Shown piece after piece: positions 5,579-32,055 of a stretch of DNA of 40,031 nucleotides. The notes under the pieces are model-generated. The model searched no databases and was not told the DNA's origin. It worked only from the letters and a program-made list of their open reading frames with translations. The DNA comes from Candidatus Bipolaricaulota bacterium (lineage in GTDB: Bacteria > Bipolaricaulota > Bipolaricaulia > M55B111), in contig JAIPHJ010000017.1 in the NCBI GenBank assembly GCA_021735245.1, positions 1 to 40,031 of the forward strand, written 5' to 3'. Numbering within the stretch: the first letter of the stretch is position 1; every line of letters begins with the position of its first letter. A program made the translations under genes and the position numbers.

Positions 5579-6700
5579 CTAATGATCCTTTTTCTTATTC
5601 ACGAACCAACCTACAAACCAATCGACCCCTTCTTCAATTGAAACTTCCGGTTGGTAATCCAATAACTCATTAGCTTTTGAAACGTCAGCGTAGGTTATGT
5701 GGACATCACCTAGTTGTTCCGGCTGCTGGTCAATTTTTGGTTCTATTCCCATTTTCTCCCCAATTAAGTGTATTAAATCTTTCAGCTGAATTGTTTCGGA
5801 ATTTCCGAGGTTGAATATTTCAAAGTTATAATCTTCTTCCAATGCGGCCATTATGCCGTCTACTATGTCGTCGACGTAGGTGTAGTCCCTTTCGGAAGTG
5901 CCATCACCGTACATTGGTAACGGCTCACCCTGGCTCATCAGGCGGGCAAATTTGTGAATTGCCATTTCTGGACGCTGGCGGGGGCCATAGACTGTGAAAA
6001 ACCGGAGGGCGGCTATTGGGATATCGTAGAGGTGATTGTAGGTCTTGCAGAACTGTTCGGCGGATTTTTTGGCGGCGGCGTATGGGGATATCTGGAGATC
6101 GGTGACGTGGTCTTCGGAAAAAGGGACCTGGTCGTTTATTCCATAAACTGAGGAAGAAGAGCCGAAGATAAACTTATCGACTTCGTGTTCTTTTGCCATC
6201 TCCAGCAGGTTGAGGGTGCCCTTTACGTCGGTGTCGACGTACTTTGTTGGGGAGACCAACGAAGGTCTTACTCCAGCCAGGGCTGCCAGGTGGGCCACTA
6301 CTTTGGGATCTGGGATTTGGGATCTGGGATCTTGGGGCTGGGATTTAAGATTTAGGATTTGGGATTTTGGGAAATCTATGGGGAGTTCTTCGTAATCTAA
6401 AGACAAACTGCGTACCTTCTCGAAATCACCGGTGAAGATGGCGTCCAGGAGATCCTTGTTTAGTATGTCGCCGGGGATTAATGTGAAATTGGAATTGTCT
6501 AATAGACCAAAAATATTTCTCTTCTTTATCTGTGGGTCGTAAAAATCATTGAAGTTATCGAGACAGATTACTTGGTGGCCCTCTTCTACTAATCTCTCGC
6601 ATAAATGTGAACCAATAAAACCTGCCCCTCCAGTGACGAGGGCACTGGGTACCTGATGCTGGGAACCTGGTACCTGGTACTGGGTACTGGTGTCAGACAT
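5579..6700 (-). CDS. NAD-dependent epimerase/dehydratase (UDP-glucuronate 4-epimerase-like)
   Basis: SALVTGGAGFIGSHLCERL Rossmann motif, SSSVYG, YAAAKKSAE; ATG at 6700 preceded by AAGGTGAGG. Contains two repeat-derived insertions. Confidence 0.9.
   Translation of the reverse strand: MSDTSTQYQVPGSQHQVPSALVTGGAGFIGSHLCERLVEEGHQVICLDNFNDFYDPQIKKRNIFGLLDNSNFTLIPGDILNKDLLDAIFTGDFEKVRSLSLDYEELPIDFPKSQILNLKSQPQDPRSQIPDPKVVAHLAALAGVRPSLVSPTKYVDTDVKGTLNLLEMAKEHEVDKFIFGSSSSVYGINDQVPFSEDHVTDLQISPYAAAKKSAEQFCKTYNHLYDIPIAALRFFTVYGPRQRPEMAIHKFARLMSQGEPLPMYGDGTSERDYTYVDDIVDGIMAALEEDYNFEIFNLGNSETIQLKDLIHLIGEKMGIEPKIDQQPEQLGDVHITYADVSKANELLDYQPEVSIEEGVDWFVGWFVNKKKDH
6302..6371 (+). repeat. degenerate ~7-bp word repeat (GGGATCTGGGATTTG), in frame inside the epimerase
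   Basis: tttgggatctgggatttgggatctgggatcttggggctgggatttaagatttaggatttgggattttggg. Confidence 0.9.
6644..6692 (+). repeat. degenerate GGTACCTGGTACTGG word repeat at the epimerase 5' end
   Basis: actgggtacctgatgctgggaacctggtacctggtactgggtactggtg. Confidence 0.88.
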
Positions 6701-6748
6701 CAATCCTCACCTTGTTTTTCCTTGATGGAGTTGATTAAACCATTACAT

Positions 6749-6781
6749 CTGGGATTTTGGATTTGCGATTTAGGATTTAGG
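6749..6781 (+). repeat. GGGATTTTGGATTT word repeat
   Basis: tgggattttggatttgcgatttaggatttaggg. Confidence 0.85.
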
Positions 6782-6819
6782 GAACAAAACTCTTAACCTA
6801 CTTACTACATCTAGCCTGA

Positions 6820-7583: not shown

Positions 7584-7643
7584 CTAGGATACGGGATCTG
7601 GGATCTGATATTAGGATTTAGGATTTGGGGTTTAGGATCTAGG
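7584..7643 (+). repeat. GGGATCTGGGATCTG word repeat
   Basis: taggatacgggatctgggatctgatattaggatttaggatttggggtttaggatctagg. Confidence 0.85.
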
Positions 7644-7682
7644 AAACGATAATAAAAACGGTTTACTTCCTAATTGACCTCC

Positions 7683-7914
7683 TCATTTATTCTTTAGCGA
7701 ATTTATAAGGCCATTTAACATTTTACCGACGGAGTCGCAATTATCAATCAAAGATTCGTATACTCTCTGCTCAATATAGTCTAGGTCTGTAGCCAGACGT
7801 AAATGATACTTGGTTTCAGCAAGACTTCCTCTTGCTTGATATAAAAACTGGATATATTCTTTGGTTGTTTGGCGGGCCTGGCCTTCAACAATATTGGCTG
7901 GGACGGAGGATTTA
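7683..7914 (-). pseudogene. C-terminal part of a four-helix-bundle (23S rRNA IVS/S23-type) protein
   Basis: Minus-strand translation SSVPANIVEGQARQTTKEYIQFLYQARGSLAETKYHLRLATDLDYIEQRVYESLIDNCDSVGKMLNGLINSLKNK*; aligns to the C-terminal part of the intact neighbour. Confidence 0.85.
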
Positions 7915-7916
7915 CT

Positions 7917-7949
7917 AGCTATCAGCCATTAGCTATTTGCTCTTAGCTC
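7917..7949. repeat. AGCTATCAGCCATTAGCT word repeat
   Basis: agctatcagccattagctatttgctcttagctc. Confidence 0.75.
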
Positions 7950-7960
7950 AAGCCAAACTT

Positions 7961-8323
7961 CTATTCTATGTCCTCATTAATTTTTGAGATAAGACCGTTA
8001 AGCATTTTTCCCACCTCATTACATTGTTCACGGAGCTCAAGATATCTCTCTTCCTTCAAATAATCTAAATCACTTGCTAATAAGAGGTGGTACTTAGTTT
8101 CCTCGACAGAACCTCTAGATATTTTAAGGAAACGCAGAAATTCTTTTTCTGATCCTCTTCCCCTTCCTTCGGCAATATTTGCGGGTATTGAAGCAACTGA
8201 ACGTCGTAATTGATCCCCTAATCGGTATTTTTCGTTCTTCGGAAAGTCCTTTGTTAATTGGTAAATAGAAAGAGTCAAGTCGTGGGCTTTTTGCCAAACG
8301 TCGAGCTTTGTGAAGCTTTCCAA
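7961..8323 (-). CDS. four-helix bundle protein (23S rRNA-intervening-sequence/S23 family)
   Basis: LDVWQKAHDLTLSIYQLTKDFPKNEKYRLGDQLRRSVASIPANIAEGRGRGSEKEFLRFLKISRGSVEETKYHL. Confidence 0.95.
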   Translation of the reverse strand: MESFTKLDVWQKAHDLTLSIYQLTKDFPKNEKYRLGDQLRRSVASIPANIAEGRGRGSEKEFLRFLKISRGSVEETKYHLLLASDLDYLKEERYLELREQCNEVGKMLNGLISKINEDIE

Positions 8324-8340
8324 GTGTGCCTCCTTCCGGT

Positions 8341-8496
8341 CTAGGTCTTTGGTTTTGGGGGGGTTGGTCTTAGGTTTCTATCTCTGTAATGTTTCAGACG
8401 ATATTGCTCCTCTGAGGGAAATTTCTCGGTCATCTCGTAAATTTTTAGGGTAAGTTTGTGTGCTTTGTTCCAGACGTCGAGGTCTTCGTAATCCAT
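8341..8496 (-). pseudogene. N-terminal fragment of a second four-helix-bundle protein
   Basis: ATG at 8496; MDYEDLDVWNKAHKLTLKIYEMTEKFPSEEQYRL then a non-homologous tail KHYRDRNLRPTPPKPKT* that runs into a word repeat. Confidence 0.85.
8342..8377 (+). repeat. GGTCTTTGGTTTTGGGG word repeat
   Basis: taggtctttggttttgggggggttggtcttaggttt. Confidence 0.65.
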
Positions 8497-8532: not shown

Positions 8533-8562
8533 ACCAGTACCTGGTACCTAATACCAAGTAAC
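8533..8562. repeat. CCAGTACCTGGTACC word repeat
   Basis: accagtacctggtacctaataccaagtaac. Confidence 0.75.
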
Positions 8563-8644
8563 TGTAAGATAGGTTTTGGACGCTTTTGGGCATGTTTTAT
8601 CTAGTTAATAGTAGGTTGCTTGTGGTGAGTGGTTTGTTCTTCCG

Positions 8645-12969: not shown

Positions 12970-13056
12970 CGGACCTGCTTTAATAGTTCCGAGTTCCGTG
13001 TTGGTTAGTTCCGGGTTAACAGCGAAAGGCAAAAAGCTTTGAAAAACTAAGCGGCC
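12970..13056 (+). repeat. 87-bp direct repeat X, left copy
   Basis: cggacctgctttaatagttccgagttccgtgttggttagttccgggttaacagcgaaaggcaaaaagctttgaaaaactaagcggcc; matches 14190-14276 with 2 mismatches by eye. Confidence 0.93.
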
Positions 13057-13077
13057 CTCAGTCCCCGCGCTGGGGGA

Positions 13078-13112
13078 ATAGGGACTGGGTACTTGGTATT
13101 TGGTACTGGTTG
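13078..13112 (+). repeat. GGTACTTGGTATTTGGTACTGG word repeat
   Basis: atagggactgggtacttggtatttggtactggttg. Confidence 0.85.
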
Positions 13113-13255
13113 AAAGACATCTAAGGGGTGTCCTTTTTAGCTTCACCCCCGCCTTGGTCCTCCCTATCATAGGGGGAGGAAAAGAGGTTGAATTCAACAT
13201 TTCGGTCGAGGGCGGGGCTCGCCATGCTTTAGGTAAAGGTAGCTCTAAGTACTTT

Positions 13256-13600
13256 TCACAACCATAATAACTGGCTTTCTAATTCTTCGCTACTCCTTTC
13301 AAGCAGGAGACTTGATAGATTATTAACTGCTTTCCCTATTGTTATTTGATCAGAGACGATTATTCCATAATGGTCTTTTCCCTCTCGAATATATTCCTTA
13401 TGGAGTAAAATAAAATCTCTTGGGTCAAAAGTAAATATCGCACTTTCCCTGTTGATAGCAAACTCAAGCTGTTCCTGGTCGGATAAGCCCCAATTTTTCT
13501 CTTCATGGGCGCTAATGACTGAATATCCCCGCAACCTGAGTGAAGAAGCCACTTGTTTATGGACGTTCTCATCTAGATACAGTTTGGGAGAGGCAAGCAT
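13256..13600 (-). CDS. DUF5615 PIN-like putative toxin
   Basis: YLDENVHKQVASSLRLRGYSVISAHEEKNWGLSDQEQLEFAINRESAIFTFDPRDF. Confidence 0.88.
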   Translation of the reverse strand: MLASPKLYLDENVHKQVASSLRLRGYSVISAHEEKNWGLSDQEQLEFAINRESAIFTFDPRDFILLHKEYIREGKDHYGIIVSDQITIGKAVNNLSSLLLERSSEELESQLLWL

Positions 13601-13602
13601 CT

Positions 13603-13920
13603 CTAATTGATCTCCAGAGTACCATCCGATTTTCTTTCCACTCCGAGTTCTTCCTGTATGGTGTCCAGGCTATCCTGATCAAGACTTTCGTTTACCTGAT
13701 CTTTATGATCATGATAGTAGCTGAGGGCGTCGAAGAATTGGGCAGCAGTGATATTGGGAAACCCTTCAAGAATATCCTCTATAGAAACCCCGGAACGGTA
13801 ATGGAATATCAACTGCTTTACTTTAACCCTGGAGCCATCAATGTAAGCTTCTCCTTGCTGATCCAAATTTATGTGCTTGTGATTCGTCCTGGTACTTGAT
13901 TCCTTCATTTTGTTCACCAT
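13603..13920 (-). CDS. DUF433 domain-containing antitoxin-like protein
   Basis: HINLDQQGEAYIDGSRVKVKQLIFHYRSGVSIEDILEGFPNITAAQFFDALSYYHDHK. Confidence 0.88.
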   Translation of the reverse strand: MVNKMKESSTRTNHKHINLDQQGEAYIDGSRVKVKQLIFHYRSGVSIEDILEGFPNITAAQFFDALSYYHDHKDQVNESLDQDSLDTIQEELGVERKSDGTLEIN

Positions 13921-14015
13921 CCAAAAATAATAATCTTATCAATCAACTTATATGTTAGCCTATACCCTGTTATAGTTCAAAGCTCGAGGTTCAAATCTAA
14001 GGGCTTATTGAGTCC

Positions 14016-14101
14016 GCTGGTTCCGGGATACTTCGGGTACTGGGTATTTGGTACTGGGTACCAGGTTTTTTGGTCTTTGGTGTTGGGTTTTAGGGGTTCG
14101 G
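14016..14101 (+). repeat. GGTACTGGGTATTTGGTACTGGGTACC and GGTCTTTGGTGTTGGG word repeat
   Basis: gctggttccgggatacttcgggtactgggtatttggtactgggtaccaggttttttggtctttggtgttgggttttaggggttcgg. Confidence 0.88.
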
Positions 14102-14189
14102 AAAAACAGCAAAAACATCTATGGGGTATCCTTTTTAAGCTTCATGCCCCACCTTATTCCCCCATCAGAAGGTGGAAGAAAACAATTGT

Positions 14190-14276
14190 CGGACCTGCTT
14201 TAATAGTTCCGAGTCCCGTGTTGGTTAGTTCCGAGTTAACAGCGAAAGGCAAAAAGCTTTGAAAAACTAAGCGGCC
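14190..14276 (+). repeat. 87-bp direct repeat X, right copy
   Basis: cggacctgctttaatagttccgagtcccgtgttggttagttccgagttaacagcgaaaggcaaaaagctttgaaaaactaagcggcc. Confidence 0.93.
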
Positions 14277-14352
14277 CGGGCTCCCATGCCCGGGCGGGGG
14301 GTCTCCTTTCAGACTATCGGGCGGGCACGGGGACCCGCCCTGCTAAAAGTAA

Positions 14353-14431
14353 AGAAATCGCTTTAATCGCGCTATCCCCGCCCAGGGGCGGGGCATTTCG
14401 CCCGATTCATGGCTTCGACACCGCGATTTCT
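14353..14431. repeat. nested stem-loop element, copy 2
   Basis: agaaatcgc/gcgatttct outer arms, aatcg/cgatt middle, ccccgcc/ggcgggg inner; shares gaaatcgcttt and ctatcccc with 5222-5297. Confidence 0.65.
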
Positions 14432-14674
14432 ATTTGTTTACAAACTTTCGCATTCATCTCCGGCCATAGGCCGGAGTATTCTGCGTGATTTTGATAATTA
14501 GTTAAGGTTCGGAGACCTGATAATGTTGCGGAAGTAAAGTGGAAGTCTAGAAGGGATTCCTCACAACTCATTACGCTCTTTAATGGAGGAAATAGAGAAT
14601 GAGTCTCGGTTGTTCACATTAAACCCATTAAGTCGCCCGGCGAGGGTTCGGAGGGACAACAAGGAGGCCTACTT

Positions 14675-15697
14675 TTACTCCACCTCTACGTTCATTACTA
14701 TCGTCGGTTTGCCGCCGTTTTTGAGGGACCGTCGAGCCGCGTCGAGAACCTTTAACACTTCCAAACCGTCCTCACCGTCGCTTCTGGGCTCGGTTCCGTT
14801 TTCGAAAGACTCCAGGAAGTGGCGGCACATTTTCTTCATCGGCTCTTCCAGCGACACGTTGGGTATGTGGACGTCTCCGTAACGGACGTTAAAACCGCCC
14901 TCGCCGGACTTTTCGGCACCCTTGTCGAATATCCAAAGCTTGTTCCTGCTCTCCATGTCGTCGAACGTGGCCATTTTTTTGCTCCCCACTACGGTCATTC
15001 TTCGGGTTTTGTGGGGATCGAGCCAGCTTAGATGTGAATGCGCTTTAACGCCGTCTTCGAATTCTACGGTCAGGAAAACCGTGTCTTCCTTGCCCTCGTC
15101 TCGCTCGAGGTATCTTCCCCCGTGAGCCGTAACTTCTTTCGGTTCCTTGTCCACGAGGTAGAGCATAAGTGAGACTTCCTGCGAGCCCAAGCTCCAGAGT
15201 ATGTCTTCCTCTGTCTCCACGTCCTCGAGGTCGAGCCGCTGGCCGTGAACGTAGTATATATCTCCGAGCTCTCCCGAATCTATCTTTTCCCTTAGTACTT
15301 CCACTGCCGAGTGGTATTCGAGCAGGTGATCCACCATAAGAGTAGTGTCTCTATCCCTGGCTAGCTCAACCAATTTCACGGCGTCGCTCACCTTCTGGGT
15401 CAGAGGACGCTCGACCAATACGTGCTTGCCAGCCCTAAGCGCCCGCTCCGTCAGTTCGAAATGCGTAGCCCCCGGTGTCGCTATCACTGTAGCCGGTATC
15501 GATTCGTCGTCGATTACCTCGTCACAGCTTCTCGACGTACATATTTCCTTGTAGTCCCGCTTGACCTCTTCCAGGTGTTCCTGGTCAGAATCGCATACCG
15601 TCACGTTACTCTGGCCGAGGATCTCTGAGAAGTTGCGGACCAGGTATTTGCCCCACTTCCCGGCTCCAATTACAGCAACGTTCTCTACGTTACCCAT
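14675..15697 (-). CDS. Gfo/Idh/MocA family oxidoreductase
   Basis: NVAVIGAGKWGKYLVRNFSEI, VIATPGATHFELTERALRAGKHVLVERPLT. Confidence 0.93.
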   Translation of the reverse strand: MGNVENVAVIGAGKWGKYLVRNFSEILGQSNVTVCDSDQEHLEEVKRDYKEICTSRSCDEVIDDESIPATVIATPGATHFELTERALRAGKHVLVERPLTQKVSDAVKLVELARDRDTTLMVDHLLEYHSAVEVLREKIDSGELGDIYYVHGQRLDLEDVETEEDILWSLGSQEVSLMLYLVDKEPKEVTAHGGRYLERDEGKEDTVFLTVEFEDGVKAHSHLSWLDPHKTRRMTVVGSKKMATFDDMESRNKLWIFDKGAEKSGEGGFNVRYGDVHIPNVSLEEPMKKMCRHFLESFENGTEPRSDGEDGLEVLKVLDAARRSLKNGGKPTIVMNVEVE

Positions 15698-15939
15698 GCT
15701 ATCCTCCTGTATAAACGTTCGTGTATTTTTCCTTTCTACTGTTCGAATTCATAATTAGCTCCCTTTCGTAAATGATGAAGATACAGCAAAGGTACCTGTA
15801 GAACAACGACAGACGTCGCCTCTCTCCGTTATATTGGTCTTTATACCAAGGTAACGTATAACGAACCCATTTCTTGTAAGTTTTAGGTTAAATTTTACAA
15901 CTTCAACAATATAAACACCTATAAACAATTGGTTACAGT

Positions 15940-17007
15940 TTGAACAACACTCACCTGGAGGTTATTGTTAAATTGTTAGTTTCTCTCACCACCATTCAGG
16001 AGGTGGTTACTATTTTATCTGGAGATTTAAAACGAATACTTACCATAAGTTTAGCGGTTGGAGCGCTTATCCTCGCTTTTTCCGTTGTAGGGCTCGGACA
16101 AGATGAAGTCCAAACTCCTTCTGAGCAGGCGAAGATAGGATACGAGAACGTCGGAAGTGTAATGAGCGAAATTACCGGAGCTGAGGAGGACAAAAGCGTT
16201 ATAGTTAAAGGGGCCCTGGCTAACCTGTTCTCAGAGCTGGCTGGCCACCTGGAAGAAAAAGGCGTACCTGACCACGTGGTAGAAAAGTTCAGGAATAGGG
16301 CGGATTCCCTCGCAGCCATTGGAGAGGAATTAACAAAGAACCAAATCGCCTCTGAGGCTTCAAACATGATTCAGAGTGTCGGCCGGAAAGATCCTGGTGG
16401 CGGAGTTCCAGTATCGGTACTGGAAAAAGCAGGTCTGAGTCGAGAAGACGTAAAAGAATTAACGGAAAAAGGACCCAATAAAGAAAAGGCCACCGAAGTA
16501 GTAAGGAAAATGGCCCAGAAGACCGAAAAAGTCCAGGAACAAGATAAAATTCGGAGCCAGGACCAGGCAAGGAACGACAACGGCAAGGGCGAAGGTAAAC
16601 CAGAAGAGGCCGGAAGCCAGGGAAACGCCGACAAAAGGAAAGGAAACGGAAACGACGCAACCGAAGCAGCAGGCGAAGACGAAACTCAAGAGAAAGGCAA
16701 CCAGGGAAACGGTTCCGACAAAGCAGGCCCACCCAGCGTGGAAGAGGACGAAACAGAACAAGGTAATTCCGCAGGGCAGGGTAGCGGCAAAGCCGGACCG
16801 CCCAGCGATGAAGTCGGTCAGGAAGAAGGTAAAGATAGATCGGCCGGGAATAATGGAAACCCTCCTGAAAATCCGGGAAATAAAGATAGAGTGGGAGAAG
16901 AAACCGACGATCGGGGCGGGAATCCCGGTAAAGGAAAAGTAAATCCGGGCAACGGCAAAGATAAGAAAGAAAAAGGGGAAGGAAACGGCCGAAGGCCGGG
17001 GAAGTAA
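15940..17007 (+). CDS. secreted or membrane-anchored low-complexity protein (Gly/Asn/Lys/Glu-rich tail); true start uncertain
   Basis: Hydrophobic segment ILTISLAVGALILAFSVVGLG, then a ~150-aa globular-looking part and a long GNGKDKKEKGEGNG-type tail; aggagg at about 15998 suggests a later start. Confidence 0.7.
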   Translation: MNNTHLEVIVKLLVSLTTIQEVVTILSGDLKRILTISLAVGALILAFSVVGLGQDEVQTPSEQAKIGYENVGSVMSEITGAEEDKSVIVKGALANLFSELAGHLEEKGVPDHVVEKFRNRADSLAAIGEELTKNQIASEASNMIQSVGRKDPGGGVPVSVLEKAGLSREDVKELTEKGPNKEKATEVVRKMAQKTEKVQEQDKIRSQDQARNDNGKGEGKPEEAGSQGNADKRKGNGNDATEAAGEDETQEKGNQGNGSDKAGPPSVEEDETEQGNSAGQGSGKAGPPSDEVGQEEGKDRSAGNNGNPPENPGNKDRVGEETDDRGGNPGKGKVNPGNGKDKKEKGEGNGRRPGK

Positions 17008-17040
17008 CAACAAAAAAGTAAGTAAAGAAATCTAAACCAG

Positions 17041-17068
17041 GCTGGTCGGGTCCCCCCACCCGGCCAGC
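17041..17068 (+). terminator. strong GC hairpin, terminator-like
   Basis: gctggtcgggt-cccccc-acccggccagc, 11-bp stem with one G:U; no clear T-run follows. Confidence 0.45.
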
Positions 17069-17263
17069 TACACTAGTTTAATACCCACCTAAAATTCAAT
17101 TCTCTTTTTCAGACCAATAGCGGGCCAGGCCCCAACACGCTGCACACTAAAGTTTATCTAGCAAGTGAAGATCTACCACAATATATAAATAGCAGAAGGG
17201 GTCTCCGTGCCCGCCCGGAGGGTGGACCCGAACGTCCCGCCCCGGCACGGGGACCGGGGCTGC

Positions 17264-17339
17264 TTGAGTTTTTTAAGAGAGGACCTGGTTTGGTTGAGTT
17301 ATTGAGTTTCTTAAAAGATGACCTAGTTTGGTTGAGTTA
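17264..17339 (+). repeat. two tandem 38-bp units
   Basis: ttgagttttttaagagaggacctggtttggttgagtta / ttgagtttcttaaaagatgacctagtttggttgagtta, 34/38 identical. Confidence 0.88.
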
Positions 17340-17503
17340 ATAAAAACCCTACCTTCCCCTGCCTTTCGGCAATAGCCACCTTTCAAACCCACCTTCAAGG
17401 AAATATATCAGGAACCTAACTTACATTGATCACTTACAGGTGACACACTTTTTTACATTATTCCAATTGGTTAACGATACTCTTTGATACAGAATAGCCT
17501 AAA

Positions 17504-19438
17504 ATGAGTTTTAGACGACGTTTTTACTATATCCATTGCATTCTCGTAATATTCATCGTTTTTAGTCTCGGACTCTTTGGCTTTTCCGAGGAGTCCGGGG
17601 ACCTGGTGATTACTGAAATCGCCTGGATGGGAACCCCGGCCAGCTATAGTGACGAATGGATCGAATTATACAACTCCACGGGTTCTCCAGTAGACGTAAC
17701 CGGATGGTCCCTGTTCGGCGCTTCGTCCGGAGAGTGCCTGAACTTTTCCGCCGCCGACGGTTCGACCACCACCGTAATTGAGCCCTACGACTACCTGATC
17801 TACGGAGCCCACCAAAATGACGTCGTTACTGAAACCGGAACCAGCCTGGTCGATATCTGGGATTCGACCATTTCACTGAACAACAGCTCGCCCGGAGAAC
17901 TGATTCTATACGACTCCGGCAACTGTTCAGGAACCGTCGTAGACAGGATCAACCAACCCGACGGTCCCTGGTTTGCAGGGGACAATTCCGAAACCAGGAC
18001 CATGGAACGAGTTAATTGCTGTGAATCGGGGACGGATCCTGACAACTGGAAGGACAACGAGCCCGCAGTAAACAGCAATGGCCTGGACGAAGACGGGAAC
18101 CAAATCAAGGGCACACCTCGTGAAACAAATTCCGTCCACCAAAATACCCCTCCAGTCCCGGAGATAACCGGGCCCACAGAGTGCTCGCCGGGGGAAGAGA
18201 TTCAGCTGGATGCAGCTAATTCTGAGGATTGCAACGGTTACGTGGAATCATTCCGATGGGATCTGAACGGAGACGGAACTTACGACGACGCAACCGGTGA
18301 ATCAGTTTCCCTGGTTTGTCCGAAGGCGGAACCGGTCAAAGTGAGTTTAAAGGTGACGGATAACGAGGGGGGCACGGGCCTCACGTCTACTTCAATCGAA
18401 CCGGATCCACCACTGGACGTCGACGCTGGGAGGGACAGGAGTATAAAACTCGGGTCGAGTACCCGGCTGAAAGGTGCGATCTCCGGTAACGAATCGGGCA
18501 ATCCCGTCGACACCCGTTGGGAACTGCTGGACGGACCGGGAACTGCGAGCTGGAACGTAGACGATACCGGTAGGGTGGATCCGATCTTCGTCCCCGAGGA
18601 ACCGGGGACTTATAAGCTAAAACTGGTTGTATCCACTGAAGGCGGAATCAGTAGATCCGACGAGGTAACCATTTCGGTCGAGAATAATCCCGCCGTGGAG
18701 GAAGATAAATTCGAAGTGAAATTTATTTCCGGGTCGGACCGCTCCTACGACGGAAAGTCCGAGACAAGGCTTAAAGCGGAAATAGTGGAAAGCGATGACC
18801 GGGTTCGGGGTTCTATTATCGGCTACGAACTGGAAGGCGGCCCCGAATTCAATTTATCCGAGGCAACTCCCCTTTCCTTCAGGGACCTGAAGGTAACTAA
18901 TCTGGAGACGGGGGTAGCGAGGGTTGGCTTTTTCTACGACCCGAACAAACTGGACCCGAGCCAGAGAGAGGAAGACCTCGGACTGTTTTACTACCGGCCC
19001 GAAGAGGGATGGCTCGAAGCGACCGACCTAACCATTCATCCCTCGCAGAACTGCGTCACGGGACGGATTTCGATCTCAGATTTGAAAGGTACTCCTCTAA
19101 CCGCAGCCGTCGAGGATTCGTCCGAAAGTTCGATCGATAACGCGGATGACCTCGTGGTCCACGGGCCCAATCCCGTGTCCGAGGATGGGTGTATTTTCTG
19201 GTTCGACCTCCCGGAAGAGGCAAAGGGAGGAAAGCTAAGAATTTACGCCGTAGACGGGAAATTACTCTACGAGACCGAGATTTCGGAGGACCAGAGGCGG
19301 TTTCCGGTCGATGACAGGTGGAAGCCAGCGGATATTCACGCCAACCAGCTCAACAAGGGTTTATATTTTTACAGATTAATAGTTAATTACCCAGGGGAGA
19401 CCCATTGGACGGAGGTGAAGAAGCTAACGCTAGAATGA
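17504..19438 (+). CDS. lamin-tail-domain and PKD-like surface/secreted protein
   Basis: LVITEIAWMGTPASYSDEWIELYNSTGSPVDVTGWSLFG (LTD), PKD-like FRWDLNGDGTYDDATGESVSLVCP, C-terminal sorting-like KLRIYAVDGKLLYE...NKGLYFYRLIV. Confidence 0.88.
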   Translation: MSFRRRFYYIHCILVIFIVFSLGLFGFSEESGDLVITEIAWMGTPASYSDEWIELYNSTGSPVDVTGWSLFGASSGECLNFSAADGSTTTVIEPYDYLIYGAHQNDVVTETGTSLVDIWDSTISLNNSSPGELILYDSGNCSGTVVDRINQPDGPWFAGDNSETRTMERVNCCESGTDPDNWKDNEPAVNSNGLDEDGNQIKGTPRETNSVHQNTPPVPEITGPTECSPGEEIQLDAANSEDCNGYVESFRWDLNGDGTYDDATGESVSLVCPKAEPVKVSLKVTDNEGGTGLTSTSIEPDPPLDVDAGRDRSIKLGSSTRLKGAISGNESGNPVDTRWELLDGPGTASWNVDDTGRVDPIFVPEEPGTYKLKLVVSTEGGISRSDEVTISVENNPAVEEDKFEVKFISGSDRSYDGKSETRLKAEIVESDDRVRGSIIGYELEGGPEFNLSEATPLSFRDLKVTNLETGVARVGFFYDPNKLDPSQREEDLGLFYYRPEEGWLEATDLTIHPSQNCVTGRISISDLKGTPLTAAVEDSSESSIDNADDLVVHGPNPVSEDGCIFWFDLPEEAKGGKLRIYAVDGKLLYETEISEDQRRFPVDDRWKPADIHANQLNKGLYFYRLIVNYPGETHWTEVKKLTLE

Positions 19439-20322
19439 CCAGCATGAACAGATCTCGTAAACTTTATATCTCGATTATCGTACCTATTTTCCTTTTCTTT
19501 TCAATCAACTTCCAGGCAGGGGGGGCGGGGACGAATTCTCTGTTCGAACTACCTCTGGACGCCCGTAGCCTGGCAATGGGAAAAGTTTCAGTCAGTCTCG
19601 GGGATAGGATTACCGATACTTTCTACAGTCCTGCGGGAAGTAATGAGCCCGGTAAATCGGCGGTATCTTCTCTTTACGCGAATCATTTCGGCGAACTCCA
19701 TTACGCTACCCTCAGTCTTCGAAGCGGGGGCTTCGGCGTCTCCTACCGGAGACTCGGTTCGGGGAAGCTCACGGAACGTGATCTATGGGGTAACCCGACC
19801 GGTAACAGCTTTAGATACTACAGTCAGGGTCTTGTAGGACGTATCGGCAGGTCATTTGGTCGCACGGTACTCGGAATAAAGGGGAGAATTCTCCAGAAAC
19901 AAATCGGGGATGGTTTTCTCGGAGGATCGCTCTCTCCGGAGGTTATTTACGAACTTAGCCCGATTAGATTTGGAGCAGTAATATCAAATCTGGTGGCCCG
20001 GGACATTTCCGGCTCGGAAGGCAATTCGAACGCGTGGAACAGGGAGTTAATCCTCGGTCTTGGGTTTGAGAGGGACAACTTCAGAGCAGGGTTCGACGTG
20101 GAAGCCGAATTTCACGACCGCGGGGTGGAGCCAAACGGATTTCGAGCCGGGGTGGAATGGTGGATAACCAGGTTTGCTGCTCTAAGACTGGGGATCATGG
20201 ACCAGCTAAGACATACTATAGGCTGGGGGATAAGGAGGAAGAATATTCAGATAGATTACGCCTACCTCCGGCACGGCGATCTACCGAACAGTCATTTTGT
20301 TTCCTTCAGCTGGATAATTTAG
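19435..20322 (+). CDS. PorV/PorQ-like outer-membrane beta-barrel protein
   Basis: ELPLDARSLAMGKVSVSLGDRITDTFYSPAGS pattern, alternating strands, C-terminal aromatic FVSFSWII; ATGA overlap with the upstream gene. Confidence 0.75.
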   Translation: MTSMNRSRKLYISIIVPIFLFFSINFQAGGAGTNSLFELPLDARSLAMGKVSVSLGDRITDTFYSPAGSNEPGKSAVSSLYANHFGELHYATLSLRSGGFGVSYRRLGSGKLTERDLWGNPTGNSFRYYSQGLVGRIGRSFGRTVLGIKGRILQKQIGDGFLGGSLSPEVIYELSPIRFGAVISNLVARDISGSEGNSNAWNRELILGLGFERDNFRAGFDVEAEFHDRGVEPNGFRAGVEWWITRFAALRLGIMDQLRHTIGWGIRRKNIQIDYAYLRHGDLPNSHFVSFSWII

Positions 20323-20390
20323 GAGGTATCAGGGGATAGGTACTGGGTATTAGGTTAAATACATCTATGGGGTTTGACTTTGTTAAGAGA

Positions 20391-20674
20391 GGGGTTGGGG
20401 GTTGGGTAAACAACAAAAACATCTATGAATTATCCTTCTTGAGCCTCACCCTCACCTTAATCCTCCCCCGTCGAGGGAGAGGAAATAGTTTACTGACGAG
20501 TCGCAGGGACCGTTTTGCAATGTTTGGTCAGCGACTGCAGCAGACCGGGTCCCTACGCCCGGCCGGTAGGATAGAGGAGAGATAAGATTTGTACTAACGG
20601 GAGCGCGGGGACTCCCTCTGCTATTCAAGCCCATCGGTAATAGCAGCCGGGGCTCCCATGCCGCGGCGATTGGT
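20391..20674 (+). repeat. ~280-bp composite direct repeat, copy 1
   Basis: ggggttgggggttgggtaaac...catctatgaattatccttcttgagcctcaccctcacc...ccgcggcgattggt; matches 22404-22668. Confidence 0.93.
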
Positions 20675-20692
20675 CTGGATACACAACCTTCC

Positions 20693-20714
20693 GGGAGAGC
20701 TCCGGAGCTCTCCC
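20693..20714. repeat. 22-bp perfect palindrome
   Basis: gggagagctccggagctctccc. Confidence 0.85.
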
Positions 20715-20754
20715 TGCCATACAAGGAGAAAAAACGGAAATTTAGCAGGAAAAT

Positions 20755-22173
20755 CTAGGTCTCCGACTTTCGCTTGTCCTCGTACATCCTTCTGTCCGCT
20801 TCCGCTATCTTCTCATCCACGCTGAGTTCTTCCTGAGGATCGAAGTTGCTGGTTCCAACTGCGAGAGTGAGGGGGAAATCGAGGATGTCGTTCTTTTCGT
20901 TCCAGTCTTTCATTTTCATCTTCAACCTCTGGACTACTATCTCGGATCCTTCTCCAGTTTCCGGCAGAAGGATAAGAAATTCATCTCCCCCGTACCTAAC
21001 GACAGTATCAACCTCCCTAATATTATTCTGCAGCAACTTTCCAATCCTTACGAGGACCCTGTCGCCCGTGGAGTGAGAGTATGCATCGTTGACCTCTTTA
21101 AATCCGTTGATATCAATCATCAAAAATGACAGGGTATGGCCGTACCGCTGAGCTCGGTCAACTTCTTTGGTAAGCACTTCCTTCAGGTAGTGCCTGTTGT
21201 ATAAACCGGTCAACTGGTCATGTATTGCCTTGTGCCGGAGATCGTCTTCGACTTCCGCTCTGGCAAGTCGCTCCCCCACGTGGTGGGCCATGATCTGTAA
21301 CAGGTTGACGTCTTCTTCGGAAAAGTAACCCTGGTCAGTAGAGATGACCTGAAGAGTTCCCCTCGTTTTCACCGGTGCGCTGACCAAGGACCGATATTTC
21401 TGTTGAGATAGTTCAAGCCGGGAATATTCGTCGAATTCTTCTCCTCGAACGACCTCGTCCTTCTTCATAGTTAGCGTGGCTAATCCTTCGTAGAGCTCGT
21501 TCGGCAGACTGACTGTATCGTTACCGAGTCCATCTCCTCTGACCATAAGAGTGCAGTCCTCTTCGAGATAGAGCACGCATATATCCGGGTTTAAAACTTT
21601 TTCTGTAACGTTAAGCGTGGTTTCGTAAATGTCTCCTTTGGATTCGGAGTCCTGTAATTTTGCCACTCCTTCTCTGAGTTTGACTATTCTTTTTCCCATC
21701 TCGGCTTCCAACTTCTTTTGAGTACTCTTCTCCAGGCAGCGCCGGACCTGCCATATTATTCCTCCATCCGTAGTTTCTGCTAGTTCCAGGTGATGATAAA
21801 TCCTGGACCCGTCCTTACTTTCTCCCGCCATTTCACCTTTCCAGCTACCTCGCTCGTTTAATTCCGGGAGAATCGTCCGGGTAAACTCCTTAACTTTCTC
21901 GGAAGTATATAGTGACTGCCAGTTCTTGCCCAGAAGTTCCTCGGGATCATCGTAATCGAAAAGATCCGCGAAGGTTTCATCCACGTAGGAAAACAATCCA
22001 TCGCTATCGAGCAGCGCAATGCTTCTTTCTCCTCCTTTTTTAGCCCCTGTAACAGTCGGTTCTTCACTGGTCACGTTAGTCAGATTAGACCCCCCATCCA
22101 CTTCAAATAGCCACTCTTTTAAATCCTCTAAGTTTTTTGACAGTTGTTCGATTTTTTTCTTTTTTTTGGACAT
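20755..22173 (-). CDS. PAS-GAF-GGDEF diguanylate cyclase
   Basis: DQLTGLYNRHYLKEVL and REVDTVVRYGGDEFLILLPETG (active site plus RxxD I-site); GAF-like and PAS-like regions upstream. Confidence 0.93.
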   Translation of the reverse strand: MSKKKKKIEQLSKNLEDLKEWLFEVDGGSNLTNVTSEEPTVTGAKKGGERSIALLDSDGLFSYVDETFADLFDYDDPEELLGKNWQSLYTSEKVKEFTRTILPELNERGSWKGEMAGESKDGSRIYHHLELAETTDGGIIWQVRRCLEKSTQKKLEAEMGKRIVKLREGVAKLQDSESKGDIYETTLNVTEKVLNPDICVLYLEEDCTLMVRGDGLGNDTVSLPNELYEGLATLTMKKDEVVRGEEFDEYSRLELSQQKYRSLVSAPVKTRGTLQVISTDQGYFSEEDVNLLQIMAHHVGERLARAEVEDDLRHKAIHDQLTGLYNRHYLKEVLTKEVDRAQRYGHTLSFLMIDINGFKEVNDAYSHSTGDRVLVRIGKLLQNNIREVDTVVRYGGDEFLILLPETGEGSEIVVQRLKMKMKDWNEKNDILDFPLTLAVGTSNFDPQEELSVDEKIAEADRRMYEDKRKSET

Positions 22174-22395
22174 TGGAAGGTTACCCCACCGTTGGTGAAA
22201 TACTAATTACTAGTATATCGGCGTTATAAATTTAAGTCAAACATATGGCAGCGGGGAAAGGGGTGAGTTGATATATATCGTTGGAAGGGGGTCTAGTTTT
22301 GTTGAACAGTTACGAGCTGACTGGTGGTTCCGGGACCCTGGTTTACTGGTTCCGGTTTAAGATATCTATGGGGTTTCCCATCGATTCTAGGTTTT

Positions 22396-22419
22396 GGGTT
22401 TTAGGGGTTGGGGGTTGGG
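22396..22419 (+). other. G-quadruplex-type motif
   Basis: gggttttaggggttgggggttggg. Confidence 0.55.
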
Positions 22420-22668
22420 TAAACAAAAAAACATCTATGAATTATCCTTCTTGAACCTCACCCTCACCTTAATCCTCCCCCGTCGAGGGGGAGGAAATAG
22501 TTTACTGACGGGGCGCAGGGACCGTTTTGCAATGTTTGGTCAGCGACTGCAGCAGGCCGGTAGTATAGAGGAGAGATAAGATTTGTACTAACGGGAGCGC
22601 GGGGACTCCCTCTGCTATTCGGGGCTATCGGTAATAGCAGCCGGGGCTCCCATGCCGCGGCGATTGGT
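22404..22668 (+). repeat. ~265-bp composite direct repeat, copy 2
   Basis: Near-identical to 20391-20674 except for a ~20-bp internal deletion and scattered changes. Confidence 0.93.
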
Positions 22669-22804
22669 TTCAGGCAAACTTGCAACCCGGCAGTAAACTT
22701 GCTTTAACCTAATGTCCCCTGTTACTCCGATAGGAAGGCTTTTCCAAGCCTGCGGTTTCGATCGGTAGAATTGTAGTACCCTCTTCTTTGGTAGATTTAA
22801 CGGA

Positions 22805-22972
22805 ATTAGTTAACATTCCCGATAGGAGGATGTTTCTAGATCCGGTGTGATGGTTGGTGGAAGTATAATAATTTACCCTTCGGTAAATTCCACGTAGTTC
22901 CTATCGAAGGTGATTAATAAACACTTCGACCAAAGTGTACACCGGGGTTAGAAACCCCCGGCTATCGGGTGT
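22805..22972 (+). repeat. dispersed repeat B (inverted partner at 33268-33440)
   Basis: ttaacattcccgatag..tttctagatccggtg..atggttggt..ggtaaattccacgtag..cacttc..gtgtacaccgggg..agaaac..ccggctatcgg. Confidence 0.8.
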
Positions 22973-23036
22973 AATAAATCATCCAAGCCGGAGACACTGG
23001 GGCCGGGTGGAAGTTTAAGATCAACCAACGTTCGGT

Positions 23037-23052
23037 AGGGCTCCGGAGCCCT
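23037..23052. repeat. 16-bp perfect palindrome
   Basis: agggctccggagccct, related to gggagagctccggagctctccc at 20693. Confidence 0.75.
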
Positions 23053-23260
23053 CCCTGCTACGATGTTTTAGACCAAAAGATTGGTATGGAGGCGTTCTTC
23101 CGGGGGAGTACGGGGACCCGCCCTACTGGGCTTCAGCAATCATTCATAGAAGCCCGGGCCTGTGCCCGGGCGATAGGTCGGTTGACTTGAAGATGTTAAA
23201 CTACTTATTTCCCCTTTGATTGATGGGGAGAAGAAAGAATCTTATTGGATGAAAGCTAAG

Positions 23261-23704
23261 CTATTCTATTTCCAGTTCTTTGAAGTCCCTGGATGCGTGA
23301 GGGTGGTCTTCGTCTTTGTAGGGTTTGAACTTCTTCATCATTTTGTCGGCTAGATTGTTTTTCGGCATCATCCGTCTTACGGCTTCCTCGATCGGAATAA
23401 GGGAATCCTCTTCCAGCAACTCTCCGTAGCTTTTCTCTTTGAGATTTCCCAGGTAGTCCGAATGGCTGTAATACATCTTCTGGTCCGGCTTGTTTCCCGT
23501 GAGCTTTACGTCAGCAGCGTTCACTACAACTACGAAATCCCCCGTATCTACGTGAGGAGTGTAGGTCGGTTTGTGTTTTCCCTGCAGTACTGTGGCTATT
23601 TTCGAAGCCACCCTACCAAGTGCTTTTCCTTTAGCGTCCACGATATACCAGTCTCTATCTTGATCGGTTATTTCCTCTTTTTTCGCCATCCAGGTATTTT
23701 GCAT
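23261..23704 (-). CDS. rplM: 50S ribosomal protein L13
   Basis: WYIVDAKGKALGRVASKIATVLQGKHKPTYTPHVDTGDFVVVVNAADVKLTG. Confidence 0.96.
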   Translation of the reverse strand: MQNTWMAKKEEITDQDRDWYIVDAKGKALGRVASKIATVLQGKHKPTYTPHVDTGDFVVVVNAADVKLTGNKPDQKMYYSHSDYLGNLKEKSYGELLEEDSLIPIEEAVRRMMPKNNLADKMMKKFKPYKDEDHPHASRDFKELEIE

Positions 23705-23809
23705 AATTTACCTCCGAATTTTTACCCAGGAAAGTTAGTTATTTAACAGCCATATTATCTTTATGATTGTGCAGTTCAGGGGTGGAAAATTCAAGGGGAA
23801 GCCTGCGCT

Positions 23810-25075
23810 CTAATCCACCATTATCGTCTGCGACCTCTTCTTCCCTATCGAAACGATCGAAATCGGAACGTCGAGTTCTTTTTCCAGGAAGTCTAGATAT
23901 CCCTGAGCTTCTGACGGCAAATCTTCCAGTGCGCCAGCATGGCTTATGTCCTCGTCCCAGCCCTCGAATGTAATATAGCTGGGCTCGCACTCGCTCAGTT
24001 CTTCTGCGGTCGGAGGAAATTCCGTTATCTTTTCGCCGTCTTTCATGTAGTGATCTGCGACCTTTATTTCGTCGAATCCCGATAACACGTCGAGCTTGGT
24101 CAGGGCAATTTCCGTCACGTCGTTCAGATCCAGGGCGTACTTTAGGCCGACGAGATCCAGAGGACCACAACGCCTGGGCCTTCCGGTAGTCGCACCGTAT
24201 TCGTCCCCGCTCTCTCTGAGTCCTTCTCCCAGATCACCCTCGTCTTCCGTGGGCATGGGACCTTTGCCGACTCGCGTCGTGTATGCCTTTACAACGCCGA
24301 TTCGACGCTCAACTCTGGTCGGAGATACCCCGGCTCCGGTACCAATTCCACCGACAGTCGGGTTGGACGACGTTACGTAGGGATACGTTCCGAAGTCGAT
24401 GTCGAGGAGAGTACCCTGAGCGCCCTCGAATATAACTGATTCTCCTTCGTCTATCGCCTCGTTTAGTACGGGAGACGAATTGATGACCCTGCCGTCGGAG
24501 ACCAGATCTCTCAGTCTTTCGACGACGTCGAAGAACTTGTCCTCCTCGATTCGGTCCAGCTCGGAGGGATCGTCCCAGCGCTCCTTGAGCTTCTCCAACC
24601 TGTTCCGAAATCGGTCCTCGAAATCGGACCGGAAGATGTCATTTATCCGAAAACCGCTGCGGGCGGCCTTGTCCTCGTAAGTCGGACCAATCCCCCGCCC
24701 CGTCGTTCCGACCTCTTCCTTGGCCTTCTCGAGTACCTCTACGATCGGATGATAAGGTGTAATGACGTGGGCCCGCGCTCCAAGAAAGATATCGGGCTGG
24801 ATTCCGCGTTTATCCTGGAGCTGATCCAGTTCCCCAACCAGTCCTTCCGGGTTTATCACCATGCCGGGGCCAAGCAGCACCTTACAGCCCTCGTGGAGGC
24901 TGGCGGACGGAAGGTGGTGGAACTTGAACTCACCCGTGTCGTCAACCACCGTATGTCCCGCGTTTGGACCGCCGTTATATCGGACGACCCAGTCTGCCTC
25001 TTCGCTCAACATGTCAGCTATCTTTCCTTTCCCTTCGTCTCCCCACTGTGAACCAATTATCGTGAGTGTGTTCAT
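23810..25075 (-). CDS. purA: adenylosuccinate synthase
   Basis: IGSQWGDEGKGKIADMLSEEADWVVRYNGGPNAGHTVV, GTTGRGIGPTYEDKAARSGFR, EGAQGTLLDIDFGTYPYVTSSNP. Confidence 0.98.
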   Translation of the reverse strand: MNTLTIIGSQWGDEGKGKIADMLSEEADWVVRYNGGPNAGHTVVDDTGEFKFHHLPSASLHEGCKVLLGPGMVINPEGLVGELDQLQDKRGIQPDIFLGARAHVITPYHPIVEVLEKAKEEVGTTGRGIGPTYEDKAARSGFRINDIFRSDFEDRFRNRLEKLKERWDDPSELDRIEEDKFFDVVERLRDLVSDGRVINSSPVLNEAIDEGESVIFEGAQGTLLDIDFGTYPYVTSSNPTVGGIGTGAGVSPTRVERRIGVVKAYTTRVGKGPMPTEDEGDLGEGLRESGDEYGATTGRPRRCGPLDLVGLKYALDLNDVTEIALTKLDVLSGFDEIKVADHYMKDGEKITEFPPTAEELSECEPSYITFEGWDEDISHAGALEDLPSEAQGYLDFLEKELDVPISIVSIGKKRSQTIMVD

Positions 25076-25102
25076 TGAACCTCCCTTTGAGGTATGATTA
25101 TT

Positions 25103-25672
25103 TTATTGGTCTTGCTCACGGTAAAAATCCTCAAACTTCGCCAGGAAATCTTCTAACAACACGGTCCGATCCACCTCTTCCCCTGCTACCTCTTTCATCG
25201 TGGTCGAATTTTCTCTGACTGCTTCCGGCAGACCTGACGCCTCGTTATTTACGTTTATTCCTATCCCGACTATAAAATTCCTGCCGCTCTCTTCGATAAG
25301 CAGTCCCGCTATTTTTTTATCTCCCGCCACCAGGTCGTTGGGCCGGGATACGCTGGTCTCTACTCCGTACTCGGCTAAAAGAGTCCGAATTAGTTTCAAC
25401 AAATCGACGTATAATTCGGGCGTTGACCGGGACGACAGACCTCCCAGGGAAAACGAAAACCACAATCCTCCCTCGGGCGAATACCACTTCCGAGTTCCCC
25501 TGCCCTGCCCGTGCGTCTGTTTATCCGCAAGCACTACTGTTCCGGGCTCAAGGTCCTCGCTGCTTCTGAGATAGCGGCTCGTGGAATCCAGCTCGGCCCG
25601 ATAAATAAACTCTGTCCAAACGTCCGAACCTTCGACGAAATCCCTAACCGGCTCCCAGTTAGACAACCTCAC
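25103..25672 (-). CDS. birA: biotin--[acetyl-CoA-carboxylase] ligase
   Basis: ADKQTHGQGRGTRKWYSPEGGLWFSFSL, RPNDLVAGDKKIAGLLIEE, GIGINVNN. Confidence 0.9.
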   Translation of the reverse strand: MRLSNWEPVRDFVEGSDVWTEFIYRAELDSTSRYLRSSEDLEPGTVVLADKQTHGQGRGTRKWYSPEGGLWFSFSLGGLSSRSTPELYVDLLKLIRTLLAEYGVETSVSRPNDLVAGDKKIAGLLIEESGRNFIVGIGINVNNEASGLPEAVRENSTTMKEVAGEEVDRTVLLEDFLAKFEDFYREQDQ

Positions 25673-28600: not shown

Positions 28601-28812
28601 AGGTCCTTGTAAACCCGGGCCATCAGGTGGCCAAAATGGGGCTTTCCGTTTGCCGTCGGAGGACCTTCGTAGAATACCCATTCCTCGTTTTCCTCGGTCC
28701 CTTCCAGGCTCCGCCGAAAGACCTCTTCCTCTTCCCAGAAATCCATCACGTCCCGTTCGCGCTCGAGGGGGTCCTCGCTTAAATCACCGTATGTCGGCAT
28801 AACTACCTCCAA
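25669..28812 (-). CDS. ileS: isoleucine--tRNA ligase
   Basis: FYEGPPTANGKPHFGHLMARVYKD (HIGH region), KAMSKSKGNVIDPWETIERYGADAIRWYL; long 1047-aa form. Confidence 0.97.
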   Translation of the reverse strand: MEVVMPTYGDLSEDPLERERDVMDFWEEEEVFRRSLEGTEENEEWVFYEGPPTANGKPHFGHLMARVYKDLFPRYKTMQGYHVERKGGWDTHGLPVELEVEKELGLENKEEIEEYGIENFVEKCKESVWEYKQEWERMIERMGFWIDLDDPYITYENEYIETLWWELKNIWEQDLLYKGHKVLPYCPRCGTGLSSHEVAQGYELTEDPSIFVKFPVEGEEGLSLLAWTTTPWTIPSNTALAVSDELWYAKVELEGEKVIMAKALLDKVLGPDYEMIEEFSGEELIGMSYEPPYRLSDDEGAYRVHNADFVTLDEGTGIVHVAPSFGEEDAELGEKEGIPFVQPLNLNGEFTSEFPLSEGDFVKDADDDIVEDLEEKGYLLKHSSYEHEYPFCWRCDTPLLYFALDSWYIETTERKEEIVENNQQINWYPEHMRDGRFGDFLDNMKDWALSRDRYWGTPLNIWTCDDCGHELSIGSRKELIEHAEDKELAEEVELHRPFIDEVKLTCPNCDGEMDRVEHVLDTWFDSGSMHTAQLHYPFENQEDFQRLFPADFICEGQDQTRGWFYTLLVTSTLLHGQSSFKNVLVTGYGLDSEGKAMSKSKGNVIDPWETIERYGADAIRWYLYSTTAPWKTRRLEEEGPGEVLYKFLDTVRNTYNFFSLYAEIDEFDPGKVESDDLDLSLLDRWINSKLNRTIGKVTDSLDDYDVPSATSAIENFVDDLSNWYVRCSRDRFWSDESGEDKLAAHYTLYSSLLALSKLFAPFTPFLAEELYRNLKADDPDSVHLADWPEVNSEEIDEDLEEHVKEVRSLTALGRKARNKAEIKVRQPLSELIVQPKRSFDGISGESLALLKEELNVKEVSFRDELEDYYVPVVSPDFSKLGPKFGGDAQKIGDRIEEEDSELIATALDEQGKVEIKVDGESFEVTGEEVELTYEPNQSYVRVENNDYVLLLNVELDEGLRQEGYVRELIRRIQQLRKEAGFEVTDRIELYYEADKSIEGAVEKHSDYLRSETLTRDLRAGKLPETADIESEESLNGKIAKIAIKRVE

Positions 28813-28956
28813 CCTAAGTTTCCCGACTTTCTTAGTTTAAACCAACTCGTAAAACAGAATACAAAATAAAACTTCTACTCTTCCGAATTTTTAATTGCCT
28901 CAACCAGTGGATCACGTTTAAAAGTTAAATAAAACCTACTCTCCCGAAACTTCCAC

Positions 28957-29077
28957 CCGGCACTTAGTTGAGAATAGTTACTTGGTTATGACAAAGCAAA
29001 CTATATTAACTTAGGCTGCCTTACGCCTTTACCGTATGAATCTACGATCCAGGCAACCCATCTCAACTAAGTGCTGG
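28957..29077. repeat. CCAGCAC-terminal inverted-repeat element 1 (121 bp)
   Basis: ccggcacttagttgaga (28957-28973) / tctcaactaagtgctgg (29061-29077). Confidence 0.75.
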
Positions 29078-29267
29078 ACCAATACTCGCCTGTCAAATAC
29101 TTTTCCGGATAACCATGCTATATCAAACTGAAGTAATAAAACCACTCAAACTAGGTCCAAGTATGAAAATCCGAAAAATAATATTAGATTGGAAAATACA
29201 TATCAATCTGATAATCCAGAAGGTAAGCGAGTACCTTTGTCTTCACAGAGAGGTTAAATATCGAGGT

Positions 29268-30926: not shown

Positions 30927-31094
30927 TATACCCCTTTATAATTTCTGAATTCCGGAATTATCGAAAGCATACGTAAGTCCAAGTAAGCTTAACTGGTGAG
31001 TCGGAAACAATCAAAAGCAAAAAGCAGGGAAGTCACATTTACCGCGAACCGGTCCGTAACCGGGCGTACCACCCCGGCACGGGAGCCCGGGCTT

Positions 31095-31197
31095 CCAGCA
31101 CTCAACAGAGCCCAGCACCCTCTAAAGAAAACTAATGGTTTGAGAAATTATACATGGTAACGAAGCGGTAAGGTTTTTCATCTCTGTTGCGTGCTGG
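31095..31197. repeat. CCAGCAC-terminal inverted-repeat element 2 (103 bp)
   Basis: ccagcactcaacagag (31095-31110) / ctctgttgcgtgctgg (31182-31197), 15/16 paired. Confidence 0.75.
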
Positions 31198-31369
31198 ACT
31201 TCGGCTATTACCGCTAACCGGACCAAGCACAGAGAGTCCCTGTGCTCCGTTGGTCGCTATAGCAACAAATCGACCGGGCACAGGAACCCGGTCTGCTATT
31301 GAGAAACGGGTCGACCCTTATAGTACCGTTGTACTGAAAGACCGCAGGGGTTACCCTCATATAGAAAAT

Positions 31370-32005: not shown

Positions 32006-32055
32006 CCGTTTTTCCCTCCGACCGTGACAGTTCCGGGAGATGCACGGAAATGCCT

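Follow-up and report, generated by a model that had tools for sequence, protein, structure and literature searches.

In-frame heptamer arrays in a Bipolaricaulota sugar epimerase gene and a possible origin in the inverted arms of S23 elements

The window analyzed here (a 40,031-nt stretch of DNA from a Candidatus Bipolaricaulota bacterium, contig JAIPHJ010000017.1) carries a gene for a sugar epimerase (Pfam Epimerase match, 4e-58) that contains two arrays of degenerate heptamers and, 1-2 kb upstream of it, the only S23/IVP (PF05635) genes found in the genome. The features of this region are as follows:

5579..6703, minus strand: epimerase gene (NAD-dependent SDR sugar epimerase/dehydratase), carrying both arrays
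6302..6372, minus strand: second epimerase array, coding-strand word NN-AATCC (also written GGGATNN), an in-frame insert before beta-4 (VVAHLAALAG)
6644..6700, minus strand: N-terminal array of degenerate heptamers, coding-strand word NN-GTACC, encoding epimerase residues 2-18
6743..6787, minus strand: array upstream of the epimerase start, word NN-AATCC
7587..7648, minus strand: 3' arm, downstream of the broken S23 gene, word NN-AATCC, as in the epimerase loop array
7695..7916, minus strand: C-terminal fragment of the broken (outer) S23 gene
7910..7952, minus strand: array where the 3' end of the inner S23 gene meets the broken S23 gene, word GCTAANN/TAGCTNN
7961..8323, minus strand: intact (inner) S23/IVP gene (PF05635, 1.1e-44), lying within the broken S23 gene
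8338..8379, minus strand: weak array at the 5' end of the inner S23 gene, NN-ARACC, found by reading the sequence and under the array threshold
8389..8493, minus strand: N-terminal fragment of the broken (outer) S23/IVP four-helix-bundle gene
8533..8566, minus strand: 5' arm, upstream of the broken S23 gene, word GGTAC-NN, of the family of the epimerase N-terminal array

Read from the ATG at 6700, the 5' end of the epimerase gene runs ATG TCT GAC ACC AGT ACC CAG TAC CAG GTA and continues CCA GGT TCC CAG CAT CAG GTA CCC AGT GCC CTC GTC ACT GGA, translated as MSDTSTQYQVPGSQHQVPSALVTGG; CAAGGTGAGG lies immediately 5' of the ATTG-ATG at the start. The units of the N-terminal array are CAGTACC-CAGTACC-AGGTACC-AGGTTCC-CAGCATC-AGGTACC-CAGTGCC; TRF calls it at 6644-6690 (period 14) and 6648-6691 (period 21), and at lag 7 it shows 21 of 28 matches, compared with a maximum of mostly 16-18 in 200 dinucleotide shuffles of the whole window. 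The initial annotation had argued that the in-frame presence of a second word family right at the beginning of the coding sequence was not due to chance; the observation was confirmed and this interpretation is supported. It had also named two findings that would refute it. The first, translation starting downstream of the repeat, is ruled out: an in-frame ATG, GTG or TTG was sought between the ATG at 6700 and the GxxGxxG (Rossmann) motif and none is present, so that a functional epimerase must contain the N-terminal array. The second, conservation of the extension in relatives without the repeat, was not found, as epimerase homologues without repeats begin straight at beta-1 and carry neither the extension nor the internal insert. 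That the array is translated, provided the epimerase gene works, is an inference from sequence alone, as is the peptide TSTQYQVPGSQHQVPS that would then be expected at the N-terminus.

The array at 6302-6372 is genuine, in frame, and located in a surface loop of the epimerase. An AlphaFold model (pTM 0.90) predicts that the core fold is kept, with residues 6-14 at pLDDT <50 and residues 108-131 forming a low-confidence loop directly before beta-4 (residues 134-137); block means across residues 101-130 were 56-69. The epimerase of the congener G003 is 80% identical and has its own array at the same site; its internal insert is 12 residues long as opposed to 24 in the window, is in frame as in the window, and is built of a different word (AAGACCT). 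Heptamer arrays also occupy this SDR loop in G014, in a paralogous SDR gene of G003, and in a dTDP-glucose dehydratase-like gene of G047; the loop before beta-4 is a site that tolerates insertions. Although G003 has arrays in the same epimerase gene, no S23 gene was detected in its genome, which is only 84% complete.

Period 7, with its multiples 14 and 21, is the sole enriched short period in the window: stretches with at least 20 of 28 matches numbered 101 at lag 7, 15 at lag 14, 11 at lag 21, and 0 at all other lags from 3 to 24. The window holds 10 period-7 arrays, compared with a mean of 0.01 in 200 dinucleotide shuffles, and the density of arrays is about 30 times higher here (10 in 40 kb) than elsewhere in the genome (4 in 518 kb), the latter figure coming from sampled stretches that total 518 kb, supplemented by pattern searches. 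A strict unit of five fixed and two free letters was considered for all arrays and rejected, as it is clear only for the TCAGC-NN family; mismatches fell in two phases in 65% of cases overall vs. 56% at random, with nothing to be seen before the array edges were trimmed.

Other repeats were observed in the window as well. At 12970-14277, both GGTAC arrays and 98%-identical direct repeats of 88 nt enclose a DUF5615/DUF433-like toxin-antitoxin pair (13256-13920); GC-rich palindromic repeat families (e.g., CGGGCGGGCACGGGGACCCGCCCTGCT) are scattered in REP-like fashion through the intergenic regions of 14270-33526; and direct repeats of 157 and 114 nt, 91-96% identical, flank a GGDEF-type gene (20392-20674 and 22404-22668).

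The arrangement at 7695-8493 is a nested insertion, in which one S23 copy interrupts another and a few codons are lost at the junction. The intact S23 protein also matches the NCBIfam model DivGenRetAVD (4e-14), and there was no rRNA match in the window by Rfam, so the S23 copies do not lie within a 23S rRNA gene. The words of the two epimerase arrays recur beside the broken S23 gene: the array at 7587..7648 shares 5-mers with the epimerase loop array at 0.56, and the epimerase N-terminal array shares 0.25 with the arm at 8533..8566, where the 95th percentile for foreign arrays is 0.135. Both S23 copies have arrays on either side, but the words of the two sides differ, and a clean arm-to-arm match, sought for these two copies, was not found. 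With the arms mismatched, which of them became the N-terminus of the epimerase cannot be read directly; further, the orientation of the N-terminal word carries little weight (0.25 sharing either way) because the word is nearly palindromic (GGTACC).

A relative provides the more direct case. In G014 an S23 element sits between the genes for UDP-glucose dehydrogenase and the epimerase, and the 3' arm of this element (CTCCCAC CTCCCTA ...) encodes the epimerase N-terminus MNPIPDTPLPPPTPTSLPPTSLPPTSPHQPS-RALITGAAGFIG, i.e., the arm supplies the N-terminal codons of this same epimerase. The gene order in the window is the same, with extra material inserted in between.

Heptamer arrays flank S23 genes in many phyla, and within an element the second arm repeats the word of the first in inverted orientation. 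We scanned 84,980 species genomes and obtained 80 S23 loci (from Bacteroidota, Chloroflexota, Nitrospirota, Cyanobacteriota, Acidobacteriota, Patescibacteria, an archaeon, and others). A strong array was present within 250 nt upstream of S23 in 37 of 78 loci (0 of 77 in the control interval from -500 to -250) and within 240 nt downstream in 47 of 79 (1 of 77 in the control interval from +600 to +860). With a more sensitive detector, arrays were found on both sides in 50 of 80 loci, compared with 0-1 of about 65 at each of six control anchors at 1.2-3 kb. The upstream arm and the reverse-complemented downstream arm shared 5-mers at 0.51, vs. 0.12 for shuffled loci (maximum of 1000 shuffles, 0.226), and the arms were inverted copies of one word in 43 of the 50 two-sided loci. 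Inverted same-word pairs 330-480 nt apart had an S23 gene inside in 62 of 67 cases; the 80 loci had been picked by S23 similarity, so that statistics on the content between inverted arrays are ascertained.

The arm words themselves vary widely among loci (TCAGC, TAAGT, TCAGT, TACGT, TTAGAC, GGTGTCA, ATTCGCA, and others), and similar S23 proteins have similar arm words even across phyla: protein similarity and word sharing were correlated (r=0.58), and for inter-phylum pairs with at least 60% S23 identity word sharing was 0.37, vs. a background of about 0.1. In both elements tested, the arms are predicted to pair as a stem in the folded RNA (z = -8.2 and -4.2). No Rfam family was matched in the window or in loci L040, L213, L230, or L212. 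The initial annotation had called the two word families in the epimerase gene unrelated, and this held only at the level of the letters, since both recur, 1 kb upstream, in the arrays beside the broken S23 gene, and since period-7 arrays are inverted S23 arms in many phyla.

Among 100 genomes of the phylum, the word family AGYNNTM (x3) had at least 10 hits in 12, and S23 was present in all 12 of these vs. 49 of 100 overall (Fisher 9e-5, uncorrected for relatedness); one genome (G055) had six hits of the pattern without S23. Some arrays flank non-S23 genes (HdrC in G044, G056, and G059) or nothing at all, as in short hairpins; as some inverted pairs enclose HdrC or nothing, S23 is not required for every array. 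Separately, we observed a heterodisulfide-reductase-C-like gene in three genera (L134, L136, and L143, at about 1800-2300), both of whose ends bear inverted heptamer arrays that translate into VTRHPSRVTRH-like tails. Further inverted same-word pairs 375-425 nt apart were seen in L024 (3839-4296), L025 (2953-3389), and L050 (6274-6735), as well as in L080 (3344-3826) and L047 (6540-7113); such pairs are apparently second S23 elements.

Arm, S23 gene and arm are present or absent as one unit at otherwise identical plasmid sites. All 10 plasmid S23 genes examined had inverted heptamer arms. At one site in a Nostoc plasmid operon, relatives with the empty site have GGTTCTAGGTTATGCAAATC, and two plasmids have the filled site GGTTCTA-[ AATCAGGAGTCAGAAGTC ... 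S23 ... GACTTCTGACTCCTGACTTCTGGATTCTA ]-GTTATGCAAATC; the next intergenic site reads GAGGTAATGGGATTTG in relatives and is occupied, in another plasmid, by a different S23 whose arms are made of GGGAAAA. Filled and empty sites with less exact junctions were also found beside a TraM-like gene (L214 and L225 vs. L220 and L221) and between ribonucleotide-reductase subunits (L213 vs. L228). The target-site duplications seen, TTCTA (site B) and ATG (site C), are too few for a rule, and no transposase or reverse transcriptase was found within the arm-S23-arm units at these sites. Carriage of the S23 element by phage was considered and rejected, as no S23 was found in the phage collection.

Two further plasmid arrangements were observed. 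In Nostoc N6 plasmid pNPM1 (L230, 589-1150) an S23 gene is broken by a hairpin with same-word heptamer arms that holds other cargo, a short IS200/605-like remnant (a likeness judged by eye), and in the type I-D cas operons of L216 and L218 (plasmids of Anabaena sp. 90 and Pseudanabaena galeata) long-armed S23 elements lie between cas6 and cas4.

The closest known system is the intervening sequence (IVS) of 23S rRNA with an S23 ORF, as in Coxiella and Leptospira. In Coxiella the S23 ORF lies in a 428-nt stem-forming element in 23S rRNA, preceded by 2-3 tandem heptamers (GACAGAT) whose number differs among strains (PMC4990558). The S23 elements described here resemble such an IVS in being units of about 430 nt with an S23/IVP ORF and in having inverted, stem-forming termini, a feature clear in most of the 50 two-sided loci and in the RNA folds, whereas the arms of the two window copies are mismatched; they differ in lying between or inside protein genes and not in 23S rRNA helices, and in having as termini long degenerate heptamer arrays with a word that changes from element to element. 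The STRR and G-rich heptamers of Nostoc and Xanthomonas are, like the arms, 7-nt tandem repeats, mostly intergenic and with many words (PMC4692102), and the Nostoc-type words GGGAACA and GGGAGTA occur as arms of plasmid S23 genes; these repeats, however, have been described as stand-alone, and a link with S23 is unreported in the literature searched. The name STRR and the 1990 work on it are general background (the work is also cited in PMC4692102). The TAACTGA repeats of marine Beggiatoaceae are likewise direct heptamer repeats with occasional coding insertions, mostly at protein termini (PMC4679880), and have the same letters as the AACTGAN arm family, but they consist of a single fixed word, were proposed as a translational regulator, and are not connected with S23 in PMC4679880. 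The DGR accessory protein Avd belongs to the same protein superfamily as S23; unlike a DGR, the genome of the window (85% complete) has no reverse transcriptase match (PF00078), and a DGR-like origin driven by reverse transcriptase was rejected on this ground. We found no literature linking non-rRNA S23 genes to heptamer arrays, although most subscription journals and preprints were outside the search.

It is very likely that the array at 6644-6700 belongs to the class of heptamers tied to S23 elements. As to how it came to be there, the account that we favor, by a modest margin, derives it from an S23 element, one arm of which (or a local offshoot of such an arm) was fused in frame to the epimerase. 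The putative element would consist of a 5' arm, an S23 gene of about 360 nt, and an inverted 3' arm, and would have no transposase or reverse transcriptase of its own. In this scenario, the 5' end of the epimerase gene received an S23 element, and the arm, or an array seeded from it, would have replaced the original start region; the fusion would have stayed in frame as only in-frame outcomes preserve the enzyme, and the loop insert may have arisen likewise, at a site tolerating extra residues. S23, with its RNA/DNA-binding Avd-like fold, would probably bind its own arms, and replication slippage together with template switching in the hairpin may expand and equalize the words. For this window the in-frame fusion step is only inferred, because its own arms are mismatched and GGTACC is palindromic.

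Four other explanations were weighed. The best of them, though unlikely, is that these are ordinary microsatellites, formed by slippage anywhere in the genome, and that both epimerase arrays are neutral passengers unrelated to S23. In many bacterial genomes heptanucleotides are indeed the most frequent of the repeats of 5-11 nt, and a polymerase slippage mechanism with a footprint of 7 nt has been put forward (work cited in PMC4679880). Against this stand the enrichment of period 7 alone, the roughly 30-fold denser arrays in the S23-bearing window than in the rest of the sampled genome, the single inverted word shared by S23 arms, and the empty sites without arrays.

Two functional explanations are very unlikely. 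The first is a phase-variable contingency locus, in which slipped-strand mispairing would add or remove heptamers and the resulting frameshifts would switch the epimerase on or off. A 7-nt unit just past the ATG is in the classic position for this, and Coxiella strains differ in heptamer copy number upstream of S23p (PMC4990558). However, the degenerate units (CAGTACC, AGGTACC, AGGTTCC, CAGCATC) suppress slippage, and the near-identity of units that such a locus calls for is lacking; the internal-site difference between congeners keeps the frame and changes the word, not the count; and the arrays are concentrated around S23 rather than marking surface genes. The second is that the repeats are regulatory or protein-binding (translation control or G-quadruplex) and selected near start codons. 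In Beggiatoaceae, TAACTGA repeats closely precede starts (PMC4679880), quadruplexes are formed in vitro by G-rich heptamers (PMC4692102), and the array at 6644-6700 abuts the start codon; yet the words change freely among loci while the flanking of S23 persists, the N-terminal array follows the ATG and would be translated from a working gene, and the second array is deep in the coding sequence. Finally, an assembly or binning artefact, with the array-rich contig foreign or misassembled, could be suspected in a draft genome of 83 contigs with 4.39% contamination and few arrays on the other sampled contigs, but is all but excluded by the array at the same site in the epimerase of the same-genus G003 and by the GGTAC array string of contig C36 of G000, which was found identical in the congener G002.

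Returning to the S23-arm account, a bolder reading is possible, which taken as a whole we consider slightly more apt to be wrong than right. It holds jointly that S23/IVP genes with inverted heptamer arms would be minimal mobile elements without a known transposase, spread throughout the bacteria; that S23 would recognize its own arm word, driving both spread and array growth; and that STRR, TAACTGA, and G-rich heptamers would be arms, solo arms, or offshoots of these elements, remodeling the ends and loops of proteins whenever they insert into genes.

There is no agreed origin for the heptamer arrays so far described from cyanobacteria, Xanthomonas, Beggiatoaceae, and other bacteria. If the reading is true, S23 arms would give these arrays an origin, with filled and empty sites to go with it, and as a by-product would account for the odd 7-residue-periodic tails and loops in metagenomic proteins. 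It would also mean that IVS elements reach far beyond rRNA, and that the unknown function of S23 becomes testable.
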